Source of the DNA: Amanita rubescens
Taxonomy: Eukaryota > Basidiomycota > Agaricomycetes > Agaricales > Amanitaceae
Direction of reading: 5' to 3'
NCBI GenBank assembly: GCA_015039365.1
Contig: WION01000058.1
Span: 152,257-216,256 of the forward strand
Length of the DNA: 64,000 bases
Shown piece by piece: positions 45,220 through 58,615 of the stretch. Numbering within the stretch: the first letter of the stretch is position 1; every line of letters starts with the position of its first letter. The notes below the pieces were generated by a model, which was not told the origin of the DNA, ran no database searches, and worked only from the letters and a program-made list of their open reading frames with translations. Made by a program: the position numbers and the translations under genes.

Positions 45220-46251
45220 ATGGCAGCCAACAGGGTTCGTACTCAATCCCAATCTCGTCTACAACTAATATAACCCGTGTTCTATCCAGGCGCTCCTGAG
45301 AGAATACAAGCTGGTCGTCTTCGGCGGAGGAGGTATGATATTACCCGCCGGTGTCCCTTATCCCCGTGGTTTGCCACGATGGTTACTGCAATCTTAGGTA
45401 CCGGAAAGACCGCGTTAGCGCTTCAGTTCATTCAAAACAACTTCATGGAGAAGTGTGATCCAACAATCGAGGGCGAGTGACATGATTTATCATATCTACT
45501 TCTTAAAATCGATCCAGAAACAGATTCATATAGAAAGCAATGTTTTATAGATGACGAAGTTGCTCTTCTGGACATTCTCGACACAGCTGGCGGAGAGGAA
45601 TACGAGTACGTGTCACCGTGTTGCTTGGTCTTCTCCCTTCGCCATGCCTCATGGAGATCCCATTGTGCTCTTTTTCTAACTGACATCTAGTGTTAATGAT
45701 GTTATTGCAGGGCGATGCGGGGGCTGTATATGCGGGGCGGAGAGGGCTTCTTACTTGTCTATTCAATTACCTCTCGTCCTTCGTTCGAGCAAATCAGTGT
45801 TCTTCATCAATCAATACGGCGTGTCAAGGGCCAAGATTCTTTCCCCGTCGTCGTTGTTGCAAACAAGAATGACTTGGGACACGAGCGCCAAGTTGGCACA
45901 AACGGTACACGTGTTCAAGTTTTATTATCGTCCTCCTTGTTCTAACCACTGCATCAGAGGGACTCAATCTCGCCAAATATCTCGGGTGCAAATTCATTGA
46001 AACGTCTGCTAAGGAGCGAATCAGTGTCGACGAGGCGTTCATTGACCTTGTCCCCGAGATACGCAAGCATAAGGTTTGCCTCTTTGTTACCTGGAATTAC
46101 ATCTGTTCCTATTTGGACATTAAGCCAGATTTCCGTGGTGTTCCTCTTCGTAGAGAAACGTCAGGTGATGTTTGCTTGTTTGATTGCCCTTCAATCGCTC
46201 TCATAATATTACCTCTCTGCTATATACTTCAGTCGTCTCCAAGTCCACTAA
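45220..46251 (+). CDS. Ras-like small GTPase, divergent (about 184 aa)
   Basis: Model join(45220..45234,45290..45332,45398..45472,45524..45605,45711..45904,45958..46073,46154..46164,46233..46251). The first six exons are well supported, the last two weak. P-loop GGGGTGKTAL, switch I CDPTIEDSYRKQ, switch [19 protein letters not shown] (VVANKNDL) and ETSAK are present. DTAGGEE has Gly where Ras has catalytic Gln61, so slow GTP hydrolysis is expected. The PTIEDSYRKQ junction requires a GC-AG intron (donor GGCGAGT at 45473). No CAAX box is found at the predicted end, so membrane anchoring is missing or the 3' exon is misjudged. The gene is followed at once by the plus-strand kinase copy. Confidence 0.75.
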
Positions 46252-46261
46252 TGGCGACCGC

Positions 46262-47739
46262 AATCCTAGGGAGTAGCTCGATCCTGTTTTGAAACGTGGT
46301 CTCATCAGTTCGCCCTCCCCGTATCCTCAATGGCTTGCAACCCTCACTAAGGTACTGTGTGCACCACCGATGTATCAATCCGCAACTAATAATGCTAGTC
46401 ATCGACACGCACCGAGTCAACAGTTAGCAATGTTACTCTTGATCGTATATGTGACCTGTTGGATCGATCCGAATCTTCTGTTGTTGTACCTGAATTGAGT
46501 ACTTCAGAAACTATGTCCCTGCTCGATTCTCTTCTTCACGTATGTGCATTTTCCACTAGTTTGTTCATAATTCACTCCTTTAAGCTGCTCAGCAACGATA
46601 CCCTTTCGAATTCGGGCATTCAAGATGCAAACCGGAAGGCCAGGAAACTGATGCTCAAGTTGATATCGACCGACGTCATGCCCAAATCTTTGTTCATTGC
46701 TGGTGTCAAGACGGATTTTGACCCCATTGGGATCGGGGGCTTTGGGCGTGTTTTACAAAGGCAAATACAAAGGAAAACAAGTGGCACTAAAGATAGTGGA
46801 CAAAGGCCATAGAGATGTTAGCACGATGCCGTTCTTTTCTCACCGAAAGTACTGATTTTAGGTAAGGGTTCAGTCGGTCAAGATTTCTGTCGAGAAGCAC
46901 TAGCGTGGCGATCACTCGCGCATCGGTTTATCATCCCCCTACTGGGAATATTCGAAAAGAAGTCGCAGCTATACCTCGTCTCACCACTCATGCAGAACGG
47001 AACATTAAGTGACTGGAGAAAGAAGCATATACCACCCATATTTGAGCTCCGTAGGCTGGTGAGGTCACTTGAGTGGTTGACAGAATTTTAATAACATCAC
47101 GCACTCCCGTTAGATGCTAGAAGTAGCTGAGGGCTTTCAGTATATTCACTCAGAAGGGATTGTGCATGGGGATTTGCATGGAGTAAGTGTTTTGACACGA
47201 ACTGATCGGGAATGCTGAGTGTCATTTCTTACCAGGCGAATGTTCTACTTGATTCCAACTTCCATTGCCAAATCACTGATTTCGGGTCGACGCGGCATTT
47301 TGAAGCCACTGTTACACGATCCACGACAGCGCTTTCCTTAAATTCAGCTGCGCCCGAGTTATTTGGAATGTGCATCGAGTGTGGCCAGTTTGATTGCGAC
47401 CGATTCCACGAAGGTCGCGAGAAGCAACATAGCGTCAAAACAATGGAAACTGATGTTTACGCGTTTGGGTGCCTTTACTATGCGGTGGGTTATAAGTTGT
47501 CGTTAACTTAACCCAGCATGTTGAGAGACTTGTGACTTGCGCAGATATTCTTTGACGCTGTTCCTTTTCGTGAAGCAACCGGCTTTCAGATCGTGCCACT
47601 TCTCATGAGCGGAAAACGCCCTGATCGGTTGGAAAGTCCACAAATGGACGATAACACATGGAATCTTATCCGGAGCTGTTGGGAATCTATCCCTTCCAAG
47701 CGACCGAAAATAGAACAAATAATGGAGTCGTTGACATGA
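46262..47739 (+). pseudogene. TKL-type kinase, inverted-repeat copy 1 (frameshifted)
   Basis: Exons can be followed from the PQWLATLTK segment (about 46320) through STSETMSLLDSLLH, KARKLMLKLISTDVMPKSLF, GGFGRV, RRL, YIHSEGIVHGDLHG, ITDFGSTRHFEA, APELFG and ETDVYAFGCLYYA to the stop at 47739. HGD, DFG and the C-lobe are conserved. Compared with the minus-strand copy, one extra base lies at about 46750-46760, immediately after the Gly-rich loop, and ruins the frame through the Lys strand. A TAG lies upstream in the frame linking it to the Ras gene, so no Ras-kinase fusion is claimed. Apart from this indel all exons are open, so the damage is recent. Confidence 0.75.
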
Positions 47740-48013
47740 AGGTCGGCTCAACCATCATTTATATGATATCTATGCTAAGATTAAACAACCTGCCCCTCGG
47801 GAAGACGTGATCCATTGGCTTTGAATTCGTATTTTTGACCGTGCCTCATACGCCCTCTTATCTGACTAATTCCCACAACTTTATCGTTAACGAAATGGAC
47901 CTGGCTCATACAACCTTCTCTCATGTAGTGGACTTGGCATGATATGATAGTGATATTAACATGGACAGCTATTCTATAATCATCGTAAATATAAAAATTG
48001 ACGAGTACCTACA
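47740..48013. other. spacer between the inverted kinase copies
   Basis: About 275 bp of A/T-rich sequence separates the tail-to-tail kinase copies. It is the loop of the large inverted repeat. No gene was seen. Confidence 0.6.
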
Positions 48014-50983
48014 CTAATCAAGCAGAGTCAACAACTTCCTTATTTGTTCTATTTTCAGCCGCTTGGAAGGGATGGTTTCCCAACAACTCTGAACGAGGTT
48101 CCATGTGTTAGTGTCCATTGGTGGACTTTCTAACCGAAGAGGGCGTTTTCCATCCATGACAAGTCGCATAATTTGAAAACTGCTCGCTTCATGAAAAGGA
48201 ACGGCATCAAAGAATATCTGTGTAACAAGTCGCTCAATATGCCGGTATAAGTTAGGGATAGCCTAAAACTGACCGCATAATAAAGGCAGCCGAACGCATA
48301 AATATCAGGTTTCCATCGTTTTGGCGCTATGCTGCTTCTCGTGACCTTCGTAGCATCCATCGCAATCGGTCTGACCACACTCGATGCACAGTCCAAATAA
48401 CTCGGGTGCAGCGAAATTTAAAGAGAGCGCTTTTGTCGATCGTGTAACAGTGGCTTCGAAATGTCGCGTTGATCCGAAATCAGTGATTTGGCAGTGGAAA
48501 CGAGAGTCAAGTAGAACGTTCCCCTGGAACGAAACGAGATAAGCTGATTGGAAATGTTGGATATTCAGAGTGCTTACTCCATGTAGATCGCCATGAATGA
48601 TTCCTTCCGAGTGAATGTACTGAAGGCCCTCAGCTACCTCTAGCATCTGATGAGAATGAGCGATGTCACTGAACTGACAGCTACTGTTATCTTACCAGCC
48701 TGTGTATCTCGGACTCTAGTACGGGTGGTTCTTGCTTCTTTCTCCAATCACTTATTGTTCCATTCGTCATGAATGGTGATACGAGGTACGGCTGTGATTT
48801 TTTTTCAAATATTCCCAACAGGGGAAGGATAAAACGGTGTTTGAGTGATCGCCACGCTAAGGCTTCCCGACAGAAGTCTTGACTGAGTGAATCCTTGGCG
48901 AATATCAGTAGTGACCTTCATGAGCAAAGAACGGCAACGAGCTAACATCTCTATGGCCTTTGTCCACTATCTTCAGTGCCACTTCCCGTCCTTTGTATTT
49001 GCCTCTGAAAACGCGTCCAAAGCCTCCGACCTTAATGGGATCAAAATTCGTCTTGACGCCTGTAATAAATAAAGATTTGGGCATAACATCGGTCGATACC
49101 AGCTTGAGCATCAGCTTCCTAGGCCTTCCGGTTTGTATCTTGAACGTCCGAATTTGGTAGGGTATCATTGCAGGCTAGCTGAAAAGAATGAATTACACTA
49201 CTGATCTAGCAAGAAAATATATACATACATTGAGAAGAGATTCGAGCAAGGATTTGGTTTCTGAAGTACTCATTTCAGATGCAGCAACAGTATGTTCAGG
49301 CTGATCCAATATTTTGTGGATACGATCAAGGTCAACTTTGTTGACTGATTGTCTGCGTGTCATTAACTAGCAATTATCAGTTACAGTATATTCATACCTA
49401 TTCATACCTTGGAAGTAGTACCTTAATGAGGGTTACGAGCCATTGAAAATCTGGGAAGGACCAACTGACGGGACCGGGACCGTGATTGTTCGCACCCGTC
49501 ATCTCGATTGAAACCTGTGCTAGATAGTTTGAATGAGAACGAGAGAGGATTTTCTCGTAATGGTTCAAGTTTTGAGTCATGGTGATCAGGTGGTCTTGAA
49601 TATCGGATAGATAGAGGCCCTACAGTGTGTTGTTGCATCAGGACGAGCGGAGGGAAGGGAAGAGGGGAAGAAAAAAAACGAACAATGGAGTCAGAGGTAG
49701 GCGCCATTCTCCAGTTCTCATTATATCTCTTGGCCAAACTCTTGACGACGTCCGCTTTACTTCCTATCAACCGTAATAAACCCATCACCTTCTTCCGGGA
49801 GGTCCCGATCCGACGTAACATGTCGGTCTGCTCGACTTCTTTGAGGATCAACACTAGCTCGTTGATACTGTCAACTTCATACTCGATGCTCTGGATGAGA
49901 GGTCTGAAAGCGTCGGTGATGTCGTCGATGAGGGCGTATGAGATCCAGTCAGAGGTGACGGTGATGGAGCCTTTGAATTGTTTGATCCGGCGACGAACGT
50001 TTTGAGGATGCGGAGTAGGTTGGAAATGGAACTGTGTGTGTGTGTTAACTTGTCAGAGGGGTTGCGTGCAAAGAAGCAAAAGACCAACATACAGAGAGAA
50101 TGCCTTCTCGGAAGACGATGATGTACATGTTGGTGGGCTCAAGGTATGTAGGTTCGTATGGATCTTGCCCAAAACTGCGGAAACAAACGAGATAGTAGCT
50201 TTTGAACAGCTCAATCTTTTCGCGTGCTTCTTCCATGAGAATATCTTCCGCTGTTAGAGGATGGATGGAAAACACTTCACTAAGCATCTTCATTTCCTCC
50301 TGTGTGGGACTGGTAACGTCTAGCCACCACGCTGAGGTATCCGAATCGACGTTGACACCTTTTTCGTGATATGTGTGTTTGCGTGCCGGGTCAAATCTGG
50401 GATTGGACGAACCTGATCTGCTTTTGTCCGGGTCTGGCGAGGGAGGCGGGTGTATACCCGAGAATAGATCCCTGAATGATTGGCCGTCTGCGGGTAGTTC
50501 ACTCAAACTACGAGAGTGTATCGTCGCGGCAAAGGAATTGGAATAAAACGAGAAACGGAACGGCCGGTCGTGACCTGTGTTAAGTATCCCGCTTATTCTG
50601 TCTCCGCGGTGTACTTGAAGAGGCGAGATATCCAGTTTTGTCTTTTCCTGGGCGGCAAATTGCTCCATGCTAGCGAAATTAAAGCTGGAGCGAGACATGT
50701 TTGCCTGATAAGTGGGAAGGTCGTAGCGAGCAGAGGCCGTCAAGTCATCCTCTTGACGGGGAGGAGCGGTGTGTGCAGCGAATAGAGAAGACTCGCCTGG
50801 TGGCAGCGAGTGGTGCAAAGGACTGGTGTCGTCGTCAAGGATGCCATTTGGGATAGTGGTGGCGGTCTGTTCTATTTCACGCTCCTCCTGAGGGTCATTG
50901 AAGTCGAATGGACGAGAAATGGTTGGAGAATGGCGAGGCCTTGTAGTAAGATCATGGTGCGGCGCGGGCACGGTTGAAGCCAT
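48014..50983 (-). pseudogene. ALR/CorA Mg-transporter N-part fused to TKL kinase (copy 2), broken
   Basis: Exons complement(48014..48217, 48274..48523, 48578..48646, 48696..48893, 48947..49174, 49229..49352, 49408..49619, 49684..50031, 50093..50983). The first two exons and most of the third are an Alr1/Mnr2-type CorA cytosolic domain (WWLDVTSPTQEEMKML, LTAEDILMEEAREKIELF, SDIQDHLITM, ILSRSHSNYLAQVSIEMTGAN). Right after ANNH, where CorA proteins enter the two membrane helices with the GMN motif, the same exon continues in frame into FPDFQWLVTLIK, the kinase leader. The GMN helices are absent. The kinase part has GGFGRVFRGKYKG, VALKIV, HGDLHG, DFG and APELFG. Two single-base insertions (about 49117-49125 and 48304-48312) break the kinase frame; a CTAG acceptor 4 nt downstream would bypass the first. 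Transport is impossible without the membrane part. Confidence 0.75.
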
Positions 50984-54927: not shown

Positions 54928-55272
54928 GTCGTACTCCTATGTCTATCTTGTGTCTATCAGTATTATAATTATATATTTTAAATTGGCCACGGATCCAGTC
55001 GTGGCTCGTGGGAAGGTTTCATGAACCAAATTCGTACTTTCGACGCTGTTTCCTCCGATCTTTGTGCGATAGAGCGCTCATGAAGGCGAAATGAAGGTGA
55101 AGGGTCAGTCGGGCGTGTCACAAGCGAGCGTGACATCCATGTTGATTCAATCATTGCCACGGTATCCTGCCGCGAACGCCAGCATAGAATTGCTCCTCAG
55201 ATATCTCCTCCACCGAATTGTTGGGTTTCCGTGTAGGAGCCACGTGCCGCGAACTCTCTGCATACTGCCAAA
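54928..55272. promoter_or_regulatory. divergent promoter region
   Basis: About 345 bp between the NTPase pseudogene (minus) and the F-box gene (plus). No repeat or other gene was seen. Confidence 0.4.
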
Positions 55273-56632
55273 ATGAGTTCCGAAATACCAACGGAAATTT
55301 TACACGACATCTTTCATCTTCTTTGCGATGAACCTATCGCTCTCCATGATTTAGATAACGAATGTCACTTTTACGAATTCCCGTGGGCCGTTGGACAGGT
55401 TTGTAGGCACTGGAGAGGGGCATTTCTGTCCCACACGCGTTTGTGGACCTCTTTTGCCCTAAAGCCTGGCACTTTCAGAACCGCTCACTTTGTTGAAATG
55501 AACCGCCGCGCGACCTTATACCTTGAACGATCTGGACAGCAGCCTCTCACCATAGACGTGTCCATGCCGTATTCGGGCACCCAAACATTTCCTAAAAAAG
55601 TTTGGGGAATGCTATTATCGTGCTTGAAGCGATGGAAAAAGGCGGATTTGAAGCTGGCAGGTGGAGCAAAGCTAGTCTTGGACGGACTCCTCAAATCCAG
55701 AGGGTACATGTTCGAGCCTCGAGTCCCTCAGGATGTCCATACCCCATTCCCTAGCCCCGGAGCACTACTATAACGCATTCCAAATCGCGCCACACCTAAC
55801 TGAACTTGATCTATCCCACCCCGGATACGTGGCAACATGGCAGTTCCCATGGGCACAATTGACGAAGCTCAAACTTGAACCATCCTGCGGAGAGTTCGAC
55901 AAGGAGAGCAATAATCTGTGGGAAGTTCTATTCCAGTTAGAAAATATCGAAGAGTTACACATCATCACAACCTTCGGCCGCATACTAAGGCACCGTTCCC
56001 CACTTCCCATTATGCGCCTTCCTAACCTTCGGCTTCTCGAAATCTCCTTAGGCTTTGCCATGATCTTCTCCTGGTTCACTGCGCCTTTACTGGAACATCT
56101 TCACATACACGGGCGCTCTGATCCCCGCTACGACTGGGTACACGATGTTCAGCCCTACGAAAGAGAAATAACGTCTTTAATCCAACGTTCATCTTGTCAC
56201 ATTCGCCGATTGGTACTTGATGATTGTAGAACGAAGGAGATGCGCATAATAATGAAATCACTGGCCAGCGTCGAAGAGCTCTCTATTACTTACCCAAGGC
56301 GAACCCTCGATGTAATACAGGATATTACAGGACTTGAGGGCTGCATCTACGTGCCCAAAATGAAGGTGTTGCAGGTTCGGACGCGTAATATTCTTGGGAA
56401 TCGTGTAGAGCAAACAGTGGCCGTAATTTCTCGCCTTCTGGAGGCTCGAGGGATGGGATTGTCCCTTCCGAGCCACGACATTACGCCGCTCGAGAAGTTT
56501 GTGATCTGGTTGGTCTCAGTGCGACTCGGAAAGTTCCCCGATGAGGTCTTGGAAGTGATGCGCAGTTGGCCATCCTTTGCTCAAGTTTATATCAATGGCT
56601 CGGTGCTCGAGCGATTGACTCCATCCCTTTGA
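55273..56632 (+). pseudogene. F-box protein gene with a +1 frameshift
   Basis: The F-box reads EIPTEILHDIFHLLCDEP ... FPWAVGQVCRHWRGAFLSHTRLW, like the gene at 40512..41921. The frame carries on to GLLKSRGY (about 55705). The downstream LRR-like part (SLESLRMSIPHSLAPEHYYN, NAFQIAPHLTELDLSHPG, RLPNLRLLEIS) is in the next frame and runs open to 56632. The shift lies at 55695-55735. A GTACAT...CCTCAG intron of 28 nt would repair the frame but is shorter than any other intron here, so a one-base indel is more likely. Otherwise intact. Confidence 0.65.
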
Positions 56633-57404
56633 TTGTCGTGCTATCCTGGGCTACTGCAAGAGTAGCGGATGCGAGAACTTGGCTGCTTGAACCTAGGGTA
56701 CATTTAGTTTAGAACTTTTTGTACAAAAATTCCGATCTCAGAGTCACGAGGCGAAAGGAGGGAAATGGGCCTTTGTGAGAGTCGAATTATTTTCTTACGC
56801 CCACATTCGCGGCACAACCCGCAACGATGCTTCACGCAGCTTTCCAGATTGATAGCATCGTTGTCCAGTAACCAATACATTGTCATCATCACATAGTAAT
56901 GTCCTCAATGTAACCTGTTGTTGTCAAGAAGAAAATATGTTTAACCGTCATTATTTCCCTCAAGCTCTCCGACGTTCAGCTTCTTCGTCGGTTTTCCTTG
57001 CGAGCTGTCGTGAATGATTACATGGCACGTAGGAAAAACGTACCGATTTAGATGCTGCCTCGTCGTCCGCCGAGTTGTCTTCTTTGTCGAAACACAACAC
57101 TTCAGTTGTTCATCATTCAAGTTGGTCTTGCCAGTACTTCGTAAATGGTTTACAGCTGGCACGCCCGTCGATGTGGCAGATTCCTTTTAAGCCGCACCAC
57201 CAGCGACGAGCGATGTCCCCTCAATCAATCACCGAAATGCGTGTGTTGTTTTACTACTCATTGGAGTCACAAACATCAATAGAAGCCTGTCATGCAGACC
57301 AAACACGAGTATCCCGACAGGAGGCCGTAGGTATTTGAAATTACAGGTTGGGGATACAGTGAACGTGAGGGAGGAGGAAGCGCGAGAGATGATACGACTG
57401 TTGC
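56633..57404. other. intergenic region without recognised genes
   Basis: Short ORFs only on both strands. It should hold the 3' region of the F-box gene. No repeat copy was recognised. Confidence 0.4.
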
Positions 57405-57809
57405 CTAGTCTTCTGTAATAAGAGAATACGATAGACGTCGAACGTCAAACATATATGGCAGAACATCATACACAGTCCACATGAAATCCGGTATGGCGAT
57501 GGACGCAGAGCGACGAGAATCCAGCCTCGTGGACACGACGTCAACACGCGTTGAACATATCCGTGTACCTCCGCCGTCCCTTCGTTCTAATATAGGCCCA
57601 CCAGTAACACTGAGGAAACCAAATGGGTCATCTGGGTCCATAGCAGTCCGCTGCACATTCACCATCGTAATTGGTATCGCCCACGGTTCATCTTTGGTAT
57701 ATTCGTCACATGCACTTGCCATTACAAGTCTGGCTTGACTTATCTTGGCCGCAATGCTGCCGCATGAGATATGCCTATTCTCATTGTTGATGCCACGGCT
57801 TAGATTCAT
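57405..57809 (-). CDS. hypothetical protein (134 aa), divergent from the exonuclease
   Basis: Intronless open frame with mixed composition (SQARLVMASACDEYTKDEPW, FMWTVYDVLPYMFDVRRL). No domain, signal peptide or membrane segment recognised. It starts 6 bp from the exonuclease start on the other strand, which leaves no promoter, so it may be a chance ORF in the exonuclease promoter. Confidence 0.25.
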   Translation of the reverse strand: MNLSRGINNENRHISCGSIAAKISQARLVMASACDEYTKDEPWAIPITMVNVQRTAMDPDDPFGFLSVTGGPILERRDGGGTRICSTRVDVVSTRLDSRRSASIAIPDFMWTVYDVLPYMFDVRRLSYSLITED

Positions 57810-57815
57810 ACTACC

Positions 57816-58615
57816 ATGGTCCTAGTCAACACCATTGAGCTTTTGCACGATTGTCTCGCCGATATCTCCCCTATTCCTGTTCCGACTCTGGCGAATTACC
57901 TCGCAGTCGATATAGAGGGCGTAAATTTGTGCCGAACAGGGCGCATCTGCATCGTGCAGCTGCAGTCCAGTCTTAGTCAGGTTGTATGGTTAGTTGATGT
58001 GACGGTACTAGGCGCCCAGGCGTTTGACGAGGTCGACAAAGAAGGAAGGAGTTTGCGTTCTATTTTGCAGGGACCAGATATACAAAAGGTTTGTCCATGC
58101 CCGTTTCGCGTGTAGTCCCTAAAAAGTTCATTTTACAGTGGTTTTACGATGTGAGAAATGATTCTGATGCCTTGTATAATTTATATGGCGTCAATCTCAA
58201 CAACGTATACGACCTACAACTCCTCGAGTTGGCGAATCGGTTGTCCAGAGGCCAAAAACCGAGGTTTTTGAAAGGTCTCGGGAAGTCCACAGAGGAACAC
58301 CTCGTCATTGATCGTGATTGGCGGGCCATCAAGGAGCAGGGCATCTCGTTGTTCGTTCCATCGATGGGAGGTCATTATGAGATTTTTGAGGAGAGGCCAT
58401 TGGACCCACGCCTAGTCGCATATTGTGAACAAGATGTCACGGTCCTATTCAAACTAGCGAAGGCGTTGAGGGGCAAAATGGGGGGGGTTGGGAAGAATTG
58501 GGAACTTCGCGTTTACAATGGGTCTATATCCCGCGTTGCGCTTGCTTGGGACCCGGGGTACAGAGGCGATGAGAGTGGGCCAACAAGTACCCTTGCAATT
58601 GCACCATCGTTATGA
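57816..58615 (+). CDS. DEDDy 3'-5' exonuclease, RNase D / Exd-like (249 aa)
   Basis: Model join(57816..58088,58139..58615); 50-nt intron. Motif I is LAVDIEGVNL (Asp32, Glu34), motif II FYDVRNDSDALYNLYGVNLN and motif III YCEQDVTVLFKLAKAL (Tyr, Asp), giving the DEDDy set of the RNase D fold. There are no HRDC or zinc domains, so it resembles the single-domain Exd1/Egl-type proteins rather than Rrp6. Such enzymes process or degrade RNA ends, or act as inactive RNA-binding partners. All acidic residues are present, so activity is expected. The substrate is unknown. Confidence 0.85.

Follow-up and report, generated by a model that had tools for sequence, protein, structure and literature searches.

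An in-frame chimera of a pore-less ALR/CorA domain and a TK/TKL-like kinase in Amanita rubescens

Introduction

What does a gene encode when the cytosolic half of a magnesium transporter runs, within a single exon, into a protein kinase? This question is raised by a locus in Amanita rubescens, which a table in PMC8725588 lists as ectomycorrhizal. The locus lies in a stretch of 64,000 nucleotides, referred to here as the window (contig C526, positions 152257-216256). An earlier note, made from the letters of the window alone, had proposed that an ALR/CorA regulatory domain is fused there to a kinase, that the membrane part of the transporter is missing, and that the fusion arose by an inverted duplication and later acquired two indels in its kinase half. 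The CorA cytosolic domain is described as a Mg sensor in a passage of PMC3125163, which also suggests that cytosolic Mg regulates Alr1 directly. We searched the species' own assembly (75.7 Mb in 786 contigs) for copies of the joint and for the genes on either side of it, and compared the copies codon by codon.

Results

The joint and its copies in the assembly

A 261-base probe covering the joint had seven matches in the genome. Four of these span the joint (C526, C15, C145 and C198), and the other three (C201, C128 and C82) cover one side only. Around the joint, C15, C145 and C198 are collinear with the window at 95.8-98.9% identity, with flanks of ~9 kb for C198 and C15 and of 6.8 kb for C145; C15 and C198 match the window again at 55-58 kb. 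C15 and C198 differ from each other no more than 40 bases from the joint, including by a 3-base in-frame indel. We infer that these two copies are alleles, in which case the fusion predates their split. The segment 55135-56788 of the window is repeated in the genome: a 3-kb probe (55000-58000) returned 53 matches at 70-100% identity, most of them to this segment, which is probably a mobile element or a gene family.

In the earlier note the chimera had taken two indels in its kinase half. Comparison of the copies does not support decay of this kind, as the indels are found in one of the four copies and C15 and C198 are open throughout. A 3.2-kb alignment shows nine inserted columns in the window's contig that are absent from the other three copies. 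Four of these, at the alignment end, were excluded; the remaining five, which include one adjacent pair, were read by eye. At these five columns the window's contig carries the C15 letter and the C198 letter side by side, and two of them are the indels in question, in exons 5 and 8. The 69 single-base differences between C15 and C198 were then used to classify the remaining copies. The window's contig agrees with C15 at 66 of them and with C198 at 3. C145 agrees with C198 at 45 and with C15 at 13; at 10 it has a gap, and at 1 a letter found in neither. Of the 21 gap columns private to C145, 10 fall at C15/C198 differences. This pattern fits an uncertain consensus at heterozygous sites; we take both the window's contig and C145 to be error-bearing, and the two kinase-half indels of the window's contig are probably assembly errors. 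In C526 and C145, reading frames are broken by inserted or missing single bases, often at positions that distinguish C15 from C198, and the ALR gene on C201 has a one-base insertion that is absent from the C128 copy, to which it is 99.6% identical. Numbers of genes and assignments of pseudogenes based on this assembly should be treated with caution.

Structure of the gene

The chimeric gene occupies 48014..50983 on the minus strand, with its ATG at 50983, the end of its stop codon at 48014, and nine exons. The N-terminal region and the start of the CorA domain are encoded by exon 1 (50093..50983) and the CorA cytosolic domain by exon 2 (49684..50031); exon 3 (49408..49619) is itself chimeric and passes from the ALR stalk helix into the kinase leader. 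If intron 3 (49353..49407, 55 bases) is spliced, the frame stays open into the kinase. Exon 4 (49229..49352) encodes the N-terminal domain of the kinase family, and exon 5 (48947..49178) the end of that domain, the glycine loop and the VALK lysine. The remainder of the kinase is distributed over exon 6 (48696..48893; N-lobe, including the helix-C glutamate), exon 7 (48578..48646; catalytic loop HGDLH, or HGDIH in C198), exon 8 (48274..48523; catalytic-loop Asn, DFG and APE) and exon 9 (48014..48217; end of the C-lobe and stop codon). In the window's contig, exon 5 has one extra base and exon 8 a second, neither of which is present in the other three copies. An apparent stop at ~48906 and a later change of frame were considered as a frameshift and rejected, as both correspond to a 53-base intron that is present in the C82 gene as well.

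The C15 and C198 copies were read without edits. Their frames are open end to end, encoding 841 and 851 amino acids, and their gene models have nine exons and eight GT-AG introns of 48-64 bases. Exon lengths differ between them by 27 bases and by 3, each divisible by three.

Parental genes and the junction

The junction lies at 49476..49483 on the minus strand: ALR homology extends to 49483 and Ras-kinase homology begins at 49476. Six bases lie between the two homologies, and CGGTCC occurs twice in tandem at the junction. In exon 49619..49408 (minus strand), the ALR stalk SRSHSNYLAQVSIEMTGANN continues directly into the kinase leader FPDFQWLVTLIK; at the joint itself the minus strand reads SRSHSNYLAQVSIEMTGANN and then HGPGPVSWSFPDFQWLVTLIK. 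On the ALR side, up to 49483, the sequence near the joint is 93% identical to the ALR gene on C128 over 139 bases and 90% identical to that on C201 over 156. On the kinase side, from 49476 on, it is 90% identical to a Ras-kinase gene on C82 over 1562 columns. Beyond the same point the ALR parent reads DANN QINDVLSKLTALGTVLVPMNLVTGLWGMNV, towards its membrane helices and GMN, and the corresponding exon of the C82 gene starts GTADDDDDHNMLRCGPVGPSFPYFQWLATLIKVLLPR. The ALR and kinase frames are joined in phase, within an exon of each parent. The reading and the switch in homology bear out the proposal that a single exon leads from the ALR/CorA stalk straight into the kinase leader, and with it the in-frame ALR-kinase chimera without pore helices.

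Pfam CorA (PF01544) matches residues 219-453 of the 841 (6.2e-29). The parent is an intact ALR gene on C128, encoding 728 amino acids, with GMN at residue 687 and with a 19-residue window above 1.6 on the Kyte-Doolittle scale. In the chimera, GMN is absent from the C15 copy, and neither C15 nor C198 has a 19-residue window above 1.6. The chimera has the cytosolic domain of a CorA/ALR transporter and lacks the two C-terminal transmembrane helices with GMN. No GMN half was found near the chimera; a CorA search of the species' own genome gave nine matches, with ten candidates scored, and none outside C128 and C201 extends over the C-terminal part. The earlier note was right that the pore helices are missing and do not lie elsewhere in the window. 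The ALR half is, however, a second copy beside an intact gene on C128, so the transporter has not been lost from the genome. Upstream, homology to the ALR parent stops about five bases before the ATG; as non-coding sequence diverges fast, this fits a swapped promoter or a diverged one equally well.

The ALR piece as annotated publicly (P0122) aligned with solved CorA chains at E 6.5e-17. Counted by hand on the alignment, Asp 142 and Asp 314 of this piece align with CorA D89 and D253, which form a Mg site of Thermotoga CorA. Both columns are invariant among 40 ALR sequences. A CorA D253K mutant is constitutively open, according to a passage of PMC9276622. The AlphaFold model of P0122 was poor (mean pLDDT 50.6, pTM 0.25), so the fold of this piece is read from its sequence alone.

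The kinase half is matched by Pfam Pkinase over residues 576-834 of the 841 (1.2e-40). An alignment of 34 sequences places the lysine, the helix-C glutamate, the catalytic aspartate, the asparagine and DFG, all of which are present, and the structure model of this domain scored a pLDDT of 87.5 and a pTM of 0.88. The nearest solved kinases include Lyn, LCK and MET by fold, with BRAF at rank 13, and EGFR, BMX, Lyn, CSK and RIPK1 by sequence. This half is predicted to be a complete TK/TKL-like kinase; the label TKL is that of the earlier note. Its likely donor type is the Ras-kinase gene on C82 (L037, C82:97985-100446, minus strand), in which a Ras GTPase is in frame with the same kinase (580 amino acids, 14 exons; Pfam Ras 3.5e-56, Pkinase 3.1e-43). 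One intron of the C82 gene has a GC donor, and the Ras-kinase architecture is itself unusual.

Near the chimera, an inverted gene for a Ras-type GTPase and a kinase (kinase A) lies on the plus strand at 45290..47740, limits approximate. It carries a linker stop and one extra kinase base in the window's contig, and C15, C145 and C198 have neither. The earlier note had pointed to an inverted kinase copy at 46.3 kb, and such a copy does extend over 46.3-47.7 kb, with 77% identity to the chimera's kinase over 1470 columns. The accompanying idea, that an inverted duplication of this gene broke into the transporter gene, does not stand in that form, because the neighbour at 77% is not the closest relative found (the C82 kinase half is 90% identical) and the ALR half represents an additional copy of its gene.

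The kinase family is large, with at least 261 exon-level matches in the species' own genome. Many TKL kinases are noted for Laccaria bicolor in a passage of PMC2838846, and in another fungal kinase lineage extra domains are reported for 16 of 241 members (part of PMC3937382). The kinase follows Ras on C82 and apparently follows Ras at 45.3-47.7 kb. Judging from these arrangements the family seems to change partners, and an ALR chimera fits a kinase family with varied partners. Among predicted proteins, P0139 of A. rubescens has a kinase of the same family followed by HMG boxes, and P0002 of A. brunnescens has a GTPase-like segment before two kinases of the family; both may be genuine fusions or artefacts of merged gene models.

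Intron 3 and the public annotation

Pieces of the chimera are already in databases, under two names. The public annotation of C15 has two models, a magnesium transporter (P0122, 381 amino acids) and a kinase (P0131, 294 amino acids). P0122 spans the joint, reads into intron 3 and ends there (...VLLPRYE). The kinase model on the window's contig, P0132, diverges from P0131 immediately ahead of the second extra base. Whether the chimera encodes one protein depends on intron 3. The kinase leader that follows the joint is the first part of the N-terminal domain of the family. We searched nine paralogous proteins for this domain and recovered eight segments from seven of them, with none in P0140 or P0004. 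The domain crosses the position of intron 3 in 7/8 segments; the exception, P0137, starts later. GT and AG of intron 3 are conserved in all four copies and in the C82 gene, which has the same introns as the chimera in the kinase half. We think that intron 3 is spliced mainly because the paralogue domain, in these predicted models, runs across its position.

Substitution patterns and age

Over the whole gene, 46 aligned codons distinguish C15 from C198 (dS 0.054, NG86), and the differences are unevenly distributed. The first 132 codons have 6 synonymous and 16 replacement differences, as if neutral (P 0.44), and the next 86 codons have 1 and 3 (P 0.67). The CorA part (240 codons) has 5 synonymous and 4 replacement differences (P 0.033). 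The leader (106 codons) has 2 and 2, without significant constraint (P 0.24), and the kinase (277 codons) has 12 synonymous differences and 1 replacement (binomial P 2.2e-7).

Against the parent on C128, the CorA part (239 codons) has 34 synonymous and 22 replacement codons, with a dS of 0.33 and a dN/dS of 0.14; the synonymous excess holds (P 0.003) even if every one of the 22 replacements is assigned to the chimera's branch together with just 17 synonymous changes, half of their number. Over the wider stretch from ILNTG to the joint, polarisation by three Amanita outgroups assigns 17 residue changes to the chimera and 3 to the parent and leaves 13 ambiguous. The kinase of C15 differs from that of C82 at 19 synonymous and 19 replacement codons (dS 0.12, dN/dS 0.27), and the leader is relaxed relative to C82 (dN/dS 0.79 for C15 and 0.60 for C198). 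These counts indicate that the kinase half has been strongly constrained since the fusion and that the CorA half has been relaxed, though not neutral, since the duplication; the extreme N-terminus looks free.

The order suggested by the dS values begins with the ALR duplication, continues with the divergence from a C82-like donor and ends with the split of C15 and C198; the fusion would fall between the last two events. Read by eye, the alignment shows C15 and C198 to be identical in the exons at 50361-49684 of the window, over ~617 CorA coding bases and at synonymous sites too, whereas intron 1, which lies in between, differs; conversion or chance may be responsible.

Discussion

The joint could in principle have been made by the assembler, from two unrelated loci put together at 49470-49500, and the window's contig does bear consensus-like errors. 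The identical joint nevertheless stands on four contigs with shared flanks, and C15 and C198 differ on both sides of it and beside it. As they differ beside it, the joint is no misassembly; the assembly join that the earlier note had named as fatal to its own proposal is contradicted by four collinear contigs, and we regard such an origin as extremely improbable. A different doubt concerns the product. The locus might yield a truncated soluble ALR piece, its short tail ending at the stop in intron 3, and a separate kinase that starts at an ATG within exon 5; selection on the kinase would then concern this second protein. The public models are drawn in this way (P0122 and P0131 on C15, P0132 on the window's contig), and constraint on the kinase domain is far above that on the ALR part. 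We nevertheless consider two products somewhat unlikely, since the separate kinase would be without most of the N-terminal domain that its paralogues keep, and the splice-site dinucleotides of intron 3 (GT and AG) are conserved in every copy of the chimera and on C82.

The uneven constraint bears equally on whether the chimera, as a whole, has a selected function, or is a decaying gene formed by readthrough of a broken ALR copy. Relaxation of the ALR half (17 changes to the parent's 3, with 13 ambiguous), the neutral-looking N-terminus and the relaxed leader would all be expected of a decaying gene. Decay would be hard to reconcile, however, with frames that are open in both C15 and C198, although 46 aligned codons differ between these copies, with exon-length differences of 27 and 3 bases that are multiples of three, and with a kinase that shows 12 synonymous changes to 1 replacement, and the frame breaks sit in the two contigs with consensus-like errors; decay is quite improbable. 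Our preferred reading, to which we give a probability of about 0.57, is that the locus is a young, real chimeric gene of A. rubescens that would encode a soluble ALR-kinase, with CorA replacing Ras as the input. The conserved splice sites and the paralogue domain make a one-protein product likely.

The claim that this is a new architecture agrees with our searches. CorA and kinase occur together in no relative among the matches listed (the best 120 of 883 and the best 120 of 2578), candidates being proteins of 0.55-1.75 times the query length. The earlier note had also advised a search for an intact ALR gene and for the same fusion elsewhere; an intact ALR gene was found on the species' own C128, and the fusion was not among the matches listed. 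We did not find a CorA-kinase fusion named in any of the listed literature titles or openings of abstracts, a search that subscription journals mostly lay outside.

The chimera resembles several known systems in part. Like the fungal ALR/MNR2-type CorA transporters (PF01544), it has the CorA domain and the stalk as far as ANN, with 70-77% identity to 39 aligned relatives, and keeps the Asp residues aligned with CorA D89 and D253; unlike them, it is without transmembrane helices and GMN and has a kinase in their place. It shares the N-terminal domain and the kinase domain with Amanita TK/TKL-like kinases and the C82 gene, but has CorA where the C82 gene has a Ras GTPase. TRPM6 and TRPM7 each combine a TRP channel that has a working pore with an alpha-kinase. 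In these chanzymes, as in the chimera, a Mg-handling protein and a kinase form a single chain (a passage of PMC9276622), but the families are unrelated to those of the chimera and the pore is retained. The chimera lacks the pore helices and is not a chanzyme, which has pore and kinase in one chain. The isolated N-terminal domain of human MRS2 is likewise a soluble domain of the CorA family, in which Mg binding disrupts homomeric interactions (part of PMC9909464); it is, however, a piece of a mitochondrial channel studied alone and without a kinase.

How the gene may have formed and what it might do can be outlined. An extra copy of the ALR gene would have lost everything after the stalk helix, including both membrane helices and GMN. 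Fusion of the truncated copy with the kinase half of a Ras GTPase-kinase gene would have taken place in frame and within a single exon, so that the soluble CorA domain took the place of the Ras domain as the upstream module. After splicing, the transcript would be translated into a single soluble protein of ~840 residues. Through its CorA domain this protein would associate with itself or with intact ALR proteins, and the kinase would be brought to, or controlled by, a Mg-dependent conformational change. Mg sensing by the chimera is a prediction. The fuller proposal is a soluble Mg-responsive kinase that arose by exchange of input modules, the CorA cytosolic half for Ras, as a pore-less counterpart of the chanzymes and one of several partner swaps in this Amanita kinase family; taken as a whole, we consider this unlikely.

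Both parental gene types, a joint located within eight bases, two sequence types and a split annotation are in hand, and a new domain architecture can therefore be studied while it is forming. If the protein is made, it would be a natural experiment on whether a pore-less CorA cytosolic domain can serve as a regulatory input, and would suggest that Ras and CorA modules can replace one another before the same kinase.
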